From assembly GCF_023093535.1 (NCBI RefSeq), contig NZ_CP095757.1, forward strand, positions 1,798,001 to 1,862,000: a stretch of 64,000 bases of DNA, written 5' to 3'. Below are positions 4,635-37,368 of this stretch, in pieces. Every line of letters starts with the position of its first letter. The stretch's first letter is position 1. Source of the DNA: Halovivax limisalsi (GTDB taxonomy: Archaea > Halobacteriota > Halobacteria > Halobacteriales > Natrialbaceae). The notes below the pieces were generated by a model. That model was not told the origin of the DNA. It saw only the letters and a program-made list of their open reading frames with translations, and ran no database searches. The position numbers and the translations under genes were made by a program.

Positions 4635-7600
4635 ATGCACATCAAAGCCCTCGTTCTGGATAATTTCAAGAGCTTCGGGCGCAAGACCCGAATTCCCTTC
4701 TACGAGGACTTCACCGTCGTCACCGGTCCGAACGGCTCTGGCAAGTCGAACATCATCGACGCCGTGCTCTTCGCGCTCGGACTGGCGCGGACGCGGGGCA
4801 TTCGCGCCGAGAAGCTCACCGACCTGATCTACAACCCCGGATACGAGGACGGCGAGCGCCCGCCGGGCACCCGCGAAGCCGAGGTCGAAGTCATCCTCGA
4901 CAACGCCGATCGGACCCTCGAGAAATCCCAGGTCGCGACGGCCGCGGGCACCGAGGACGTCGGCGACTGCGACGAGATCCGCATCCGCCGACGGGTCAAA
5001 CAGACCGAGGACAACTACTACTCCTACTACTATCTCAACGGCCGCTCGGTCAACCTCACCGACATCAAGGACCTGCTCGCCCAGGCCGGCGTCGCCCCGG
5101 AGGGGTACAACGTCGTCATGCAGGGCGACGTCACCGAGATCATCAACATGACCCCGCACAGTCGGCGCGAGATCATCGACGAGATCGCCGGCGTCGCGGA
5201 GTTCGACGCGAAGAAGGCGGACGCGTTCGAGGAACTCGAGGTCGTCCAGGAGCGCATCGACGAAGCCGACCTCCGCATCGAGGAGAAGCGGACCCGCCTC
5301 GACCAGCTCGAAGACGAGCGCCGGATGGCGCTTCGCTACCGTCGCCTCCGGCGCGAAAAGGCCGAGTACGAGGGCTACCTCAAGGCGAGCGAACTCGAGG
5401 AGAAACGCGAAGAACTCGAATCGGTCGAGGAACGCATCGACGACCTCGAGGCCGACCTGGAGGAACGCCAGCGCGACCTCGACGAGAAGCAGGGCACCGT
5501 CGTTCGCCTGCAGGAGGACCTCGAGGACCTAAACGCCGAGATCGAGCGCAAGGGCGAGGACGAACAGCTACGGATCAAAGCCGAGATCGAGGAGGTCAAA
5601 GGCGAGATCGCCCGCCTCGAGGACAAGATCGAGACCTGCCGGGAGCGCATCGAGGAAGCCGAGGCCGACCGGCGCGAGGCGTTCGTCCAGATCGACCGCA
5701 AGCAAGAGCGCGTCGAGGAGCTCGAGGACGAGATGCGCGAGTGCAAACTCGAGAAGGCCTCGATCGCCTCCGAGATACAGGAGCGCGAGGCCGAGATCGA
5801 CGAGCTCGAGACCGAACTCGAGAACGTCGACACCGAGTACGACGAAGTGAAGGCCGACCTCGCCGAGCGCAAGGACGAACTCGAGGTGGCGAAGACGGCG
5901 AAGAACGACCTCCAGCGCGAGCAGGATCGCCTGCTCGACGAGGCGCGACGGCGATCGAACGAGATCTCGGAGCTCGAGTCCTCGATCGAGGAGACCCGTG
6001 AACTCCTGCCGGAACTCGACGAAGAGCGCTCGGAACTCGAACGGGAACTGTCGAAGGCCGAGGCGAACAAGGAGAACATCGCCGAGGTCGTCCAGGACCT
6101 GAAACGCGAGCGCTTCCAGCTCCAGGACGACCTGGACGAACTCGAGGACGAACTCCAGGCGAAACAGCAGGAGTACGCCGAACTCGAGGCGAAGGCGGGC
6201 GAGAGCGGCGACTCCTCGTTCGGGCGCGCGGTGACGACCATCCTGAACGCCGGCTTCGAGGGCGTCCACGGCGCGGTCGCGCAGCTGGGAAGCGTCGCGG
6301 GCGAGCACGCCGTCGCCTGCGAGACGGCCGCCGGCGGCCGGCTGGCGAACGTCGTCGTCGACGACGACGGCGTCGGCCAGCACTGCATCGAGCACCTCAA
6401 GTCGAAGAACGCCGGGCGGGCGACGTTCCTCCCGATGACCGAGATGCACACGCGAAGCCTGCCCTCGGCCCCGGCAGACCCCGGCGTGGTCGACTTCGCG
6501 TACAATCTGGTCGACTTCGACGACCAGTACGCGGGGGTTTTCTCGTACGTCCTCGGCGACACGCTCGTCGTCGAGGACATCGAGACGGCCCGGTCCTACA
6601 TGGGCGACTTCCGGATGGTGACCGTCGACGGCGACCTCGTCGAGAAGAGCGGGGCGATGACCGGCGGCTCGCGCAAGGGATCGCGCTACTCGTTCTCGAC
6701 GGACGGTCGCGGCACACTCGAACGCGTCGCGACCCAGATCACGGAGCTGCAGGACCAGCGCGAGGACCTGCGCGAGGAGCTTCGCGACGTCGAATCGAGA
6801 CTCGACGACGCGCGGGACCGACAGACCGACGCGGCGGACGAGGTTCGGTCCATCGAGAACGAGATCGAGAAGCTCGACGACCAGCGCGAGCGACTCGAGG
6901 CGGAGATCGAGTCCGACGAGTCTGAACTCGAAGAGCTCGAGGACGAGCGCGAATCCGTCGACGAGGAGATGACCGAAATCTCCGGGAAGATCGAGGCAAA
7001 ACAGGCCGATATCGAGTCGATCGAGGCGGCGATCGAGGAACTCGAGACCGAGCTGGCCGACTCGAAGATTCCGGAACTCACGGCCCAGATCGAGGAGCTC
7101 GAGGACGAGATCGACGAGCGCGAGGATCGCGTCGAGGCGCTCAACTCCGAGCTCAACGAGTACGAACTCGAGAAGAACTACGCCGAGGAGGCGATCGAGG
7201 ACCTCCACGACGAGATCGAGACCGCCCAGAACCAGAAGGCGGAGTACGAAGGGCGCATCGAAACCTACGAGGCCGAGATCGAGAGTCAGGAGGGCGCCCT
7301 CGACGAAAAGCGCGAGGCGGTCGAACAGCTCGAATCCGAACTCGCCGAACTCAAAGACGAGCGCTCCGATCTCAAGGACGATCTCGCCGACGCCCGGCTG
7401 GCTCGCGACGAGGCCCAGGAGGCCGTCGACGAGACCGAGTCCGACCTCGCCGCGGCGCGGGACCGCGAGGAGGCCCTGACGTGGGAGATCGACTCGCTCG
7501 AGGACGAGGTCGGCGACTACGACCCCGAGGACGTCCCGGACCACGACACCGTCGTCGAGATGATCGACCTCCTCGAGGCCGACATGGAGGCGCTCGAACC

Positions 7601-8210
7601 GGTGAACATGCTCGCGATCGACGAGTACGACGAGGTTCGATCCGCCCTCGACGAACTGGAGGAAAACCGGGAGACCCTCGTCGAGGAGGCCGAGGGCATT
7701 CGCGATCGGATCGAGCGCTACGAGCGCCAGAAGAAGGACACCTTCATGGACGCCTACGAATCGATCAACGGCCACTTCACCGACATCTTCGAGCAGCTCT
7801 CGGAGGGGACGGGCTCGCTCCACCTCGAGGACGATGAGGACCCGTTCGACGGCGGGCTGACCATGAAGGCCCAGCCCGGCGACAAGCCGATCCAGCGCCT
7901 CGACGCGATGTCCGGCGGCGAGAAGTCCCTGACGGCGCTGGCGTTCATCTTCGCCATTCAGCGGCACAACCCGGCGCCGTTCTACGCGCTCGACGAGATC
8001 GACGCCTTCCTCGACGCGGTCAACGCCGAACGCGTCGGCCGGATGGTCGACGAGCTGGCCGGCGACGCGCAGTTCGTCGTCGTCTCGCACCGCCAGGCCA
8101 TGCTCGATCGCTCCGAGCGAGCCATCGGGGTGACGATGCAACAGGACAACGTGAGCGCGGTGACCGGGATCGACCTGAGCGGCGGGGAGGAGGTCGTTGC
8201 TGATGACTAG
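4635..8210 (+). CDS. smc: Chromosome segregation ATPase SMC
   Basis: Structural-maintenance-of-chromosomes ATPase of 1191 residues, the usual family length. It dimerises through its hinge and, with ScpA, makes the condensin-like ring that organises the chromosome. The Walker A motif GPNGSGKSN is at residues 31-39. Two very long charged coiled coils (about 170-520 and 680-1030) flank a globular hinge around 525-670. The ABC signature MSGGEKSLTALAF lies near residue 1090 and the Walker B/D-loop FYALDEIDAFLD near 1117. A GGAGG sequence stands 8-12 bases before the ATG. The gene overlaps scpA by 8 bases, so the two are translationally coupled. A long open frame exists on the opposite strand but is only a by-product of GAG/GAC-rich codons. 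Confidence 0.97.
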   Translation: MHIKALVLDNFKSFGRKTRIPFYEDFTVVTGPNGSGKSNIIDAVLFALGLARTRGIRAEKLTDLIYNPGYEDGERPPGTREAEVEVILDNADRTLEKSQVATAAGTEDVGDCDEIRIRRRVKQTEDNYYSYYYLNGRSVNLTDIKDLLAQAGVAPEGYNVVMQGDVTEIINMTPHSRREIIDEIAGVAEFDAKKADAFEELEVVQERIDEADLRIEEKRTRLDQLEDERRMALRYRRLRREKAEYEGYLKASELEEKREELESVEERIDDLEADLEERQRDLDEKQGTVVRLQEDLEDLNAEIERKGEDEQLRIKAEIEEVKGEIARLEDKIETCRERIEEAEADRREAFVQIDRKQERVEELEDEMRECKLEKASIASEIQEREAEIDELETELENVDTEYDEVKADLAERKDELEVAKTAKNDLQREQDRLLDEARRRSNEISELESSIEETRELLPELDEERSELERELSKAEANKENIAEVVQDLKRERFQLQDDLDELEDELQAKQQEYAELEAKAGESGDSSFGRAVTTILNAGFEGVHGAVAQLGSVAGEHAVACETAAGGRLANVVVDDDGVGQHCIEHLKSKNAGRATFLPMTEMHTRSLPSAPADPGVVDFAYNLVDFDDQYAGVFSYVLGDTLVVEDIETARSYMGDFRMVTVDGDLVEKSGAMTGGSRKGSRYSFSTDGRGTLERVATQITELQDQREDLREELRDVESRLDDARDRQTDAADEVRSIENEIEKLDDQRERLEAEIESDESELEELEDERESVDEEMTEISGKIEAKQADIESIEAAIEELETELADSKIPELTAQIEELEDEIDEREDRVEALNSELNEYELEKNYAEEAIEDLHDEIETAQNQKAEYEGRIETYEAEIESQEGALDEKREAVEQLESELAELKDERSDLKDDLADARLARDEAQEAVDETESDLAAARDREEALTWEIDSLEDEVGDYDPEDVPDHDTVVEMIDLLEADMEALEPVNMLAIDEYDEVRSALDELEENRETLVEEAEGIRDRIERYERQKKDTFMDAYESINGHFTDIFEQLSEGTGSLHLEDDEDPFDGGLTMKAQPGDKPIQRLDAMSGGEKSLTALAFIFAIQRHNPAPFYALDEIDAFLDAVNAERVGRMVDELAGDAQFVVVSHRQAMLDRSERAIGVTMQQDNVSAVTGIDLSGGEEVVADD

Positions 8211-9471
8211 CGAGGAATCCGAGGAGGCGAAGGCGACGACGGATTCCTCGGAAACGCGAACGGGGAACGAAGTGACCCGTGAGCGAAGGGAGGGCTCCGA
8301 GGAGGCGAAGGCGACGACGGATTCCTCGGAAACGCGAACGGGGAACGAAGTGACCCGTGAGCGAAGGGAGGGCTCCGAGGAGGCGAAGGCGACGACGGAA
8401 CCCTCCGAACACTCGAGCGGGGAGCGAAGCGACCCGCGAGAGAGCGTGGACGGCGAGTTCGAGCGATCCTCGGAACCATCCGACGAGGCCGCCGAGGACG
8501 ACATTCCCCTATCGATCGCCGGGCACGAGGATCGCGAGCCACCGGGCGGAGACGACGCGGAATCGGTCTCGTTCGGCGACGCGGACGAGGAGTCGGACGC
8601 CGATGCACCCGACGACGCGGATCCGTACCCCGACCAGGTCGACGCGCTCGCCGCCGATGAGGACGATGAGGACGTCCAGCCGGTCGAGTTGCTCGTTCAG
8701 CTGGCCAAGAACGGCGAGATCGACCCGTGGGATATCGACATCGTGCACGTGACGGACGCGTTTCTCGACGCGCTCGACGAGGCCGATCTGCGAACCTCGG
8801 GTCGGGCGCTGTTCTACGCGAGCGTCCTCCTGCGGATGAAGAGTGACGTGCTGTTCACGCCGGACGAGCCCGACGAGGAGGAGTTGCCGCCGTGGGAGGC
8901 GCCGTTCGCCGAGGAGGGGCCGGCCCCGGAGGAAGCGGAGGGGCCGGACGGGTTCGATCCGGTCGAGCGGCTCGAAGCGGAGATGGATCGCCGGCTGGAG
9001 CGCCAGCACGCACGCGGCAAGCCGGAGACGCTGGACGAGCTGGTTCGGGAACTGCGCGACGCCGAGCGGGGGTCGTGGTGGAAGCGCTCGCGCGAGTACG
9101 ACACGTCGAACTCGCCGAGCGGGTTCAACCGCGGCGTGCAGGAACTCAGCTACCACTCGGGCGACGCCTTTCGCGGCGTCGACGAGCCGACGGCCGACGA
9201 CGTCACGCACACCCAGCACGACGAGGATATCGAGGACGTCATCGACGCCGTCGAGGCGGCGCTCGAACCGCACTACGAGGGCGGCCGCGAGGAGGTCCTG
9301 TTCGTCGAGATCGAGGCGTCGGGCGGCTCGCGGGTGATGACCTACCTGGCGCTGCTGTTTCTCGCCCACCGCGGTCGGGTGCGACTCGAACAGGACGAAC
9401 TGTTCGGCGACCTCTGGGTCCAGCAGGTGACGGTCGAGGCCGAGGCGACCGGCGAAGCGGTGGCGGACTGA
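8203..9471 (+). CDS. scpA: Segregation and condensation protein A with repeat-expanded N terminus
   Basis: ScpA is the kleisin that bridges the two SMC heads. The kleisin core begins near residue 158 with the N-terminal helical domain (VELLVQLAKNGEIDPWDIDI), and a C-terminal winged helix covers roughly residues 330-422 (the segment EEVLFVEIEASGGSRVMTYLALLFL). The first ~155 residues are an acidic disordered tail not found in bacterial ScpA; its residues 7-65 are made of a 26-residue unit repeated twice plus a partial third copy, rich in Thr, Ser, Glu and Arg. The ATG at 8203 overlaps the smc stop by 8 bases. Total length is 422 residues, well above the ~250-300 usual for the family because of the tail. 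No scpB is visible in the window. Confidence 0.92.
   Translation: MTSEESEEAKATTDSSETRTGNEVTRERREGSEEAKATTDSSETRTGNEVTRERREGSEEAKATTEPSEHSSGERSDPRESVDGEFERSSEPSDEAAEDDIPLSIAGHEDREPPGGDDAESVSFGDADEESDADAPDDADPYPDQVDALAADEDDEDVQPVELLVQLAKNGEIDPWDIDIVHVTDAFLDALDEADLRTSGRALFYASVLLRMKSDVLFTPDEPDEEELPPWEAPFAEEGPAPEEAEGPDGFDPVERLEAEMDRRLERQHARGKPETLDELVRELRDAERGSWWKRSREYDTSNSPSGFNRGVQELSYHSGDAFRGVDEPTADDVTHTQHDEDIEDVIDAVEAALEPHYEGGREEVLFVEIEASGGSRVMTYLALLFLAHRGRVRLEQDELFGDLWVQQVTVEAEATGEAVAD
8221..8399 (+). repeat. 78-base in-frame tandem repeat inside scpA
   Basis: Two copies, identical or nearly so, run 8221-8298 and 8299-8376, followed by about 22 bases of a third copy from 8377. The period of 78 bases keeps the reading frame (26 residues per unit). 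Each unit contains the motif GAACGAAGTGACCCGTGAGC, and a decayed form (GAGCGAAGCGACCCGCGAG) follows at about 8422-8440. There are no spacers, so it is not a CRISPR array. Confidence 0.95.
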
Positions 9472-12074: not shown

Positions 12075-12692
12075 CTACCCCGTGTAGGAGACGAGCGCGT
12101 CCGCGTCGCTGGCCAGGGAGACGGCGTCCGGGCCGAACGAGTCGGCGTGCCTGGTGAGGAGGACGAGCAGCGATTCCGGGCGGACCAGGCTGTAGCCGTC
12201 GGATCGGTCGAGGAGCCCCTGCGATTCGAGCTCGGCCGCGTACTTGCTCACCGTCGGCGCGGAGACCTCGAGGGCATCCGCGAGTTCGCTCGCGGCGGCG
12301 TCCGGCTCCCGGAGGAGGTGAATGATCATCCCGCGCGGGGTCTCGCGTCGCAGGTAGCCCAGCGCGCAGCGCTCGAACGCGTCGAATCGACCGGCCGGGA
12401 CGAAGCGACTGTAATCGCCGTCCGCGAAGCGCTCGACGCGGCCGGCCTCCTCGAGCGTTCGAAGGTGGTGTTGGGTCTCGCCCGTCCCGAGCTGGAGGTC
12501 GTCGCGGATCTTCGAGAAGTGCGCGCCGGGCGTAGTCGCGAGGTAGCCCGCGATGGCGTCGCGGGCCTCGCTCTCGCCCGTCTCACCGGCGGCCGATCCG
12601 GCCGCACCGACGAGGGGCGCGCCGGCGCCGACGGTCGCAAAGCGCCGCAGCGTCGCCCGCTTGTCCTCGTCGACGCGGTCCTTCCCGGTCAT
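12075..12692 (-). CDS. Double winged-helix regulator with Tat-like N terminus
   Basis: A 205-residue protein. Two winged-helix modules are visible: about 45-100 (AIAGYLATTPGAHFSKIRDDLQLGTGETQHHLRTLEEAG) and 115-165 (GMIIHLLREPDAAASELADALEVSAPTVSKYAAELESQGLL). Both are typical of haloarchaeal transcriptional regulators. Unusually, residues 10-35 read KRATLRRFATVGAGAPLVGAA, with a twin Arg followed by Phe and a hydrophobic Gly/Ala stretch that looks like a Tat signal or a weak membrane segment. Whether this anchors the regulator at the membrane or is a decayed remnant is unclear. The gene lies alone between two minus-strand genes. Confidence 0.75.
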   Translation of the reverse strand: MTGKDRVDEDKRATLRRFATVGAGAPLVGAAGSAAGETGESEARDAIAGYLATTPGAHFSKIRDDLQLGTGETQHHLRTLEEAGRVERFADGDYSRFVPAGRFDAFERCALGYLRRETPRGMIIHLLREPDAAASELADALEVSAPTVSKYAAELESQGLLDRSDGYSLVRPESLLVLLTRHADSFGPDAVSLASDADALVSYTG

Positions 12693-37078: not shown

Positions 37079-37163
37079 GCGAGGGTAGCCAAGCCAGGCC
37101 AACGGCGGTGGGCTTAAGACCCGCTCCCGTAGGGGTCCTTGGGTTCGAATCCCAACCCTCGCA
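37079..37163 (+). tRNA. tRNA-Leu (anticodon UAA)
   Basis: An 85-base type II tRNA. The acceptor stem pairs GCGAGGG with CCCTCGC, discriminator A. The anticodon stem GTGGG/CCCGC encloses CTTAAGA with anticodon TAA at 37115-37117. A long variable arm (TCCCGTAGGGGTCC) is typical of Leu. The T arm is TTGGG-TTCGAAT-CCCAA. CCA is not encoded and there is no intron. It is followed by a small hairpin (GTCTC 37168-37172 / GAGAC 37181-37185) that may help termination or processing. Confidence 0.96.
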
Positions 37164-37278
37164 TACCGTCTCGAACGTGAGAGACGTGTATGCGTGACGA
37201 GGGATTCGAATTATGCCAGTCGCAGCGCGAACGAAGTGAGCGACCGTCTGGAGGTGGTTCGAATCCCAACCCTCGCAT
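37142..37278 (+). repeat. Duplicated tRNA-Leu 3' end (possible attachment-site remnant)
   Basis: The 23-mer GGTTCGAATCCCAACCCTCGCAT occurs at 37142-37164 (tRNA T arm and acceptor 3' end) and again, identical, at 37256-37278, 114 bases apart. Each copy is followed by a hairpin (GTCTC/GAGAC after the first, GAGACAC/GTGTCTC at 37281-37306 after the second). The interval holds GCGCGAACGAAGTGAGCGAC, a member of the scattered haloarchaeal motif, and a piece resembling an inverted fragment of the tRNA end (GAGGGATTCGAA, about 37199-37210). Confidence 0.85.
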
Positions 37279-37368
37279 GCGAGACACGAACGTCGGTGAG
37301 TGTCTCGGTTCTGCGAACGGTGAGCGAAGCGAGCCGTGAGCATCCCGAATGTGGGGCACCCAAAACCA

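Follow-up and report, generated by a model that had tools for sequence, protein, structure and literature searches.

A tandem hairpin repeat in the N-terminal tail of a haloarchaeal scpA gene and its relatives across the order

A 78-base tandem array is translated as part of scpA

The window, a stretch of 64,000 nucleotides from a 3.89-Mb single-contig haloarchaeal genome, carries the genes smc and scpA of the SMC complex (Table 1). The smc stop codon (TAG, 8208-8210) is overlapped by scpA, whose ATG lies at 8203, and a tandem array starts 8 nt downstream of this stop, so that the array is translated. Tandem Repeats Finder, applied to the whole window, located the array at 8218-8440 with a period of 78, 2.8 copies, 93% matches and a score of 381, in comparison to 107 for the runner-up among the tandem repeats of the 64-kb window. 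The original prediction of a 78-base repeat, with two copies and a partial third kept in frame, was thus confirmed: the whole array is in frame within scpA and copies 1 and 2 are identical, while copy 3 shows a 1-nt length change ahead of its hairpin relative to the other two. Inside smc, at 6089-6135, a sub-threshold match to Rfam Guanidine-II was also observed (21.7 bits, cut-off 32), which is probably a chance match.

The scpA open reading frame encodes 424 residues, and its Pfam SMC_ScpA match starts only at residue 169. The N-terminal tail consists of residues 1 to about 159, and the array precedes the first conserved kleisin helix. In the predicted structure, a low-confidence model (mean 52.8), residues 1-159 have pLDDT values of about 35-46 and form no secondary structure, in agreement with the earlier placement of the repeat within a disordered kleisin tail. 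Among named scpA genes, the closest one found belongs to Halovivax asiaticus (88%), and the organism is a Halovivax-like haloarchaeon.

Table 1. Features of the smc-scpA junction and of the tandem array (window coordinates)
Feature	Position	Strand	Basis or description
smc	4635..8210	+	Pfam SMC_N and SMC_hinge
scpA, kleisin subunit of SMC complex	8203..9471	+	Pfam SMC_ScpA, E 2.3e-12
Repeat unit copy 1	8218..8295	+	Tandem Repeats Finder, copy alignment
Copy 1 first hairpin	8218..8252	+	TCCGAGGA ... TCCTCGGA, from unit folding and sequence
Copy 1 second hairpin	8256..8284	+	GC-GA-ACGGG-GA-AC-GAA-GT-GA-CCCGT-GA-GC; member of dispersed family
Repeat unit copy 2	8296..8373	+	78/78 bases same as copy 1
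Copy 2 first hairpin	8296-8330	+	Same as copy 1 first hairpin
Copy 2 second hairpin	8334..8362	+	Identical to copy 1 second hairpin
Repeat unit copy 3 (incomplete, diverged)	8374..8440	+	Hairpin frame differs from copies 1 and 2
Copy 3 hairpin	8417..8437	+	GCGGG-GA-GC-GAA-GC-GA-CCCGC; two compensated pairs differ from copies 1-2

The repeat is best viewed as a hairpin with a constant apex

Comparison of the array copies revealed that the hairpin of copy 3 differs from that of copies 1-2 in two base pairs, both of which are compensated, and that two reading frames are used for the hairpin, giving RTGNEVTRE in copies 1-2 versus SSGERSDPRE in copy 3. The reading in two frames, together with the compensated pairs, argues that a nucleic-acid structure is conserved rather than a peptide, and the repeat is best seen as a hairpin and not as a peptide unit. 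In the hairpin, the outer stem varies and is followed by GA/GA mismatches in tandem and by two inner pairs that close a GNA or GNNA loop. The apex of the hairpin, first read as GA-RC-GN(N)A-GY-GA and now as GA-xC-GN(N)A-Gx'-GA, is constant, and the self-complementary stem beneath it varies freely. At 97 of 269 apexes the outer stem reached a length of 4 bp, with 13 expected when the right flanks were shuffled, in a set where some loci had been retrieved through a single fixed stem; seven altered apexes yielded only 0-3 such stems each.

To count the hairpin element by element, the fixed-stem loci were left out and one element was left free at a time, with kinship among loci ignored. The inner pair was Watson-Crick in 43/45 cases, the loops were mostly of 3 or 4 bases (GNA 23/32, GNNA 16/19), and the flanking dinucleotides were GA/GA in 14/17. 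The outer stems comprised 23 different 5-bp sequences among 39. As a replication set, we used loci retrieved with nothing but the right half of the hairpin as query, from four genomes belonging to other families. In this set, with kinship again ignored, 56 of 59 inner positions pair (GC/GC 30, CC/GG 18, AC/GT 8, unpaired 3). At the outermost of the tested positions, 11 of 30 cases have A-T, 11 have G-C and 1 has C-G. Base pairs were thus shown, as far as sequence comparison goes, to covary across loci and between the array copies.

Two variants of the apex were also recorded. The inner pair C-G (GACCGNAGGGA apex) accounts for 18/59 in the four genomes of other families (stretches L242-L271); in stretches from this family it is uncommon (3/45). 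In one genus (genomes G006-G009), a sub-type carries a two-base loop, CGGGGAGCTTGCGACCCG and also CT and GT, in place of GNA/GNNA.

The apex resembles a known DNA motif. The oligonucleotide d(GCGAAGC) forms an extraordinarily stable DNA mini-hairpin, a motif whose GNA or GNNA loop sits on two or more G-C pairs (PMC4686876), and it is described there as a chemical motif and as a part of aptamers, not as a genomic repeat family. The apex GC-GAA-GC corresponds to it by sequence. A GNA/GNNA loop with at least two G-C pairs is found in copy 3 and in most members of the family, whereas the loop of array copies 1-2 is closed by an A-T plus a C-G pair instead of two G-C pairs.

The hairpin is dispersed in the genome and in the order

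When at most 3 mismatches were allowed, the motif GAACGAAGTGACCCGTGAGC had 4 matches in the window versus 0.02 expected and 9 in the genome versus 0 for the reversed control, which bears out the earlier remark that a short motif is scattered in the window. With the array as the query, 38 genome matches were obtained, mostly short and weak; among them were arrays with periods of 70 bp and 65 bp, near 909,779 and 3,432,918. Searching the genome for the unit gave a divided answer: the hairpin half is dispersed, but the complete 78-mer has scpA as its sole location, and the first-hairpin half SEEAKATTDSSE has no match outside the array. Two further arrays of the same hairpin family, both longer than that of scpA, are present in this genome (G000). 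One has a 65-bp period (3,432,885-3,433,302; stretch L062, 7885-8302) and starts about 4 nt past a stop codon according to our own gene calls, and the other has a 70-bp period (about 909,779-910,294; stretches L021-L028).

In 125 genomes of the family, the pattern CGGGGAGCN{2,6}GCGACCCG gave about 273 matches versus 21 for the reversed pattern; this genome has 10 exact matches and hence few copies. The pattern CGGGGAGCGNAGCGACCCG is found in 167/392 genomes of the order, and none was seen for the reversed control. The largest count in a single genome (G405) is 33 exact matches to one sub-pattern, varying stems escaping any single pattern, and in a motif-free scan for enriched inverted-repeat spacings the family was too sparse to stand out. 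In sampled stretches of genome with our own gene calls, members were located both between genes and inside protein linkers. Same-family hairpins also lie near tRNA genes: the window region 37079-37345 holds tRNA-Leu(TAA) followed by hairpins around 37229-37239 and 37317-37339, and the tRNA 3' end occurs there once more as GGTTCGAATCCCAACCCTCGCA; in stretch L056 hairpins are likewise located downstream of a tRNA-Val gene (12445-12520).

The array could in principle be an ordinary local minisatellite, produced by slippage in a GC-rich tail and having no kin among other repeats. The confinement of the full 78-mer to scpA and the identity of copies 1 and 2, as after a fresh duplication, would fit such an origin. 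However, the hairpin half has relatives throughout the genome and the order, scpA tails of other genera share the hairpin, and slippage accounts for tandem growth only, which makes this origin highly improbable.

The scpA tail is a recurrent site of the repeat

Comparison of five genomes of the genus revealed related repeats, built differently, at the same place of scpA in the congeners G001, G002, and G004 (for example TTEPSEDANGERERPVSEDG in the tail of G004), and no such repeat in scpA of G003. We further read 75 haloarchaeal scpA loci, with one genome per species. The tail of Natrarchaeobius contains a 23-residue unit four times, that of Natronococcus pandeyae three units, and that of Halopiger goleimassiliensis four. 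The arrays therefore vary in both copy number and sequence between congeners and between genera; the original prediction had named a repeat number conserved in distant genera, or a motif confined to this locus, as observations that would speak against it, and instead the number varies and the motif occurs elsewhere in the genome.

For the scpA genes, a hairpin was scored when an apex was accompanied by four or more base pairs of outer stem, or when the motif matched with no more than two substitutions. By this fixed criterion, 20/79 scpA genes carry the hairpin, and many tails contain repeats too diverged for assignment. On a tree of the conserved part of the 79 genes, presence of the hairpin requires about 14 gains or losses, at least six of which are forced by well-supported branches. 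The scpA tail again contained the hairpin in two genomes from another family that had been retrieved solely through the DNA motif. Where measurable, the first motif lies 30-150 nt past the smc stop. The scpA tail is a recurrent site, colonised many times by the hairpin repeat.

All the scpA tails read are hydrophilic and without predicted structure, as would be expected if selection on the protein retained the tail as an acidic, disordered peptide that the repeats merely lengthen. The hairpin, however, occurs in two frames within a single array and between genes elsewhere, its two altered pairs changed in a compensated manner, and many scpA genes do without it; we consider selection on the protein an improbable explanation.

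Entry into genes and a possible route of spread

A second protein gene of this genome, encoding a CBS-domain protein (665,596-666,144), contains about 40 in-frame residues built of related modules. This insertion is missing from all four congeners, indicating that sequence of this kind enters genes within the lifetime of this genus, and no insertion edge or target-site duplication could be fixed for it. We infer from these patterns that the repeat is mobile. The earlier proposal of a mobile repeat tolerated and amplified inside a gene held in part: dispersal, the array, and the unstructured tail agree with it, while a mobile element in the strict sense is putative, neither a Y1/RAYT-type transposase in this genome nor a target-site duplication having been found.

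REP elements and BIMEs are short hairpins located mostly downstream of coding regions, with some in replication and repair genes (PMC3733652), and sometimes they occupy the same site in relatives (PMC3733652); REP elements usually exceed 100 copies per genome (PMC2817692). The repeat described here shares with the REP/BIME elements (GTAG and CGTC super-families) the short hairpins, the position mostly downstream of genes, and a recurrent site. It differs in its apparently low copy number, its tandem GA/GA mismatches and its GNA/GNNA loop; the hairpin foot is GCGA...GAGC, and no GTAG (GTGG) or CGTC foot tag recurred when the contexts were read by eye. If a Y1 (IS200/RAYT-like) transposase had moved a REP-type element, short, imperfect hairpins often near stop codons and sometimes within genes would be expected (PMC3733652), as are seen here. 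However, no Y1/RAYT-type transposase (PF01797) was detected in this genome, and PF01797 is present in 13/20 repeat-rich versus 11/20 repeat-free genomes, not tracking repeat abundance. Mobilisation by Y1/RAYT was rejected on these grounds, and a REP-type origin of this kind is very unlikely.

A DNA reading is tentatively favored over an RNA reading

With RNA parameters, the second hairpin folds at -12.3 kcal/mol (z -3.85, 0/200 shuffles as low) and the whole unit on the + strand reaches z -4.07, the other strand being weaker, while folding with DNA parameters is weak (z -1.52 for the second hairpin, and -0.9). Intergenic members of the first set lie downstream of co-oriented genes in a ratio of 32:11 (p 0.002), 19 of these 32 being within 50 nt of the stop codon, and members within genes are in the sense orientation 13:1. 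These data are consistent with the main rival explanation, that of an RNA element whose hairpin works in the transcript, for instance in 3'-end formation or stability downstream of smc and further genes, its translation in scpA being due only to the gene overlap. However, the orientation bias was not seen among the intergenic members of the replication set (13:10), and the sense bias within genes can arise by filtering at the protein level. In addition, the third position of four-base loops is a pyrimidine in 13/20, unlike the GNRA loops of RNA, and the array has no match in Rfam. A function in RNA deduced from strand bias was thus kept as a rival only, and we consider the RNA element unlikely; we lean toward a hairpin acting as DNA.

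Discussion

Analysis of the array, its dispersed relatives, and the scpA tails of other haloarchaea suggested that the array is probably a tandem amplification of a hairpin repeat dispersed through the order, with dispersal, settlement in scpA, and forced translation as its successive elements. A repeat would have settled directly downstream of the smc stop and would have been forced into translation, as scpA starts inside the smc stop codon. It may have been retained because the frames used contain no stop and the kleisin tail is free in length and sequence. Copying may have proceeded via a folded single DNA strand, as suggested by the apex, which corresponds to the d(GNA)/d(GNNA) mini-hairpins known for their stability. 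The tandem copies would have grown by slippage or unequal recombination. Counted against this explanation are the small number of copies in this genome, the weak folding with DNA parameters, the many tails with repeats beyond assignment, the lack of dispersed kin for the first half of the unit, and the failure to find an enzyme of spread, an insertion edge or a target duplication. A wider proposal, which we offer tentatively and consider doubtful, is that of a class of repeats extending through the haloarchaeal order and spreading in the form of single DNA strands folded into hairpins. Their constant apex would be bound by a putative protein, and they would settle time and again at the smc-scpA junction and so rebuild the kleisin tail. 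Since the apex is constant while the stem varies, a recognising factor, if any, can be sought.

By analogy, the nearest known kinds appear to be REP and Rickettsia palindromic elements (RPE). RPE are palindromic repeats that have been inserted without a shift of frame into protein genes of unrelated kinds, and copies lie in other parts of the genome as well (PMC10969869, PMC3733652). They measure about 150 bp and encode a conserved peptide (PMC10969869). The analogy lies in the in-frame entry into unrelated genes, here scpA and the CBS-domain protein, with relatives lacking it. In contrast to RPE, the hairpin here is about 29 nt in a unit of 78 bp, is read in two frames, and combines a constant apex with varying stems. 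Haloquadratum walsbyi contains short transposase-free repeats known as SMRs, MITEs, and PATEs (PMC3119063), of which the SMRs span about 110 bp and have terminal inverted repeats, and the PATEs are related to IS605-type transposons (PMC3119063). The hairpins described here are shorter, and no IS link was found in a search for PF01797 only.

Taken as a whole, the original prediction is partly supported: it was largely right, and what it missed are the hairpins in the unit, the conservation of structure in place of a peptide, and the many colonisations of the scpA site. No description of the repeat in haloarchaea was found in the literature searched, which was mainly open-access. The hairpin family, which extends through an archaeal order and is recognisable by its constant apex and its covarying stems, not by any fixed sequence, appears to be unreported, and its apex coincides with a DNA motif of known extreme stability. 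The family represents an archaeal counterpart of protein-coding palindromes, in which nucleic-acid repeats insert into core genes without breaking the frame and alter a protein tail, and the same site of the smc-scpA operon appears to have been reshaped again and again by hairpin repeats.
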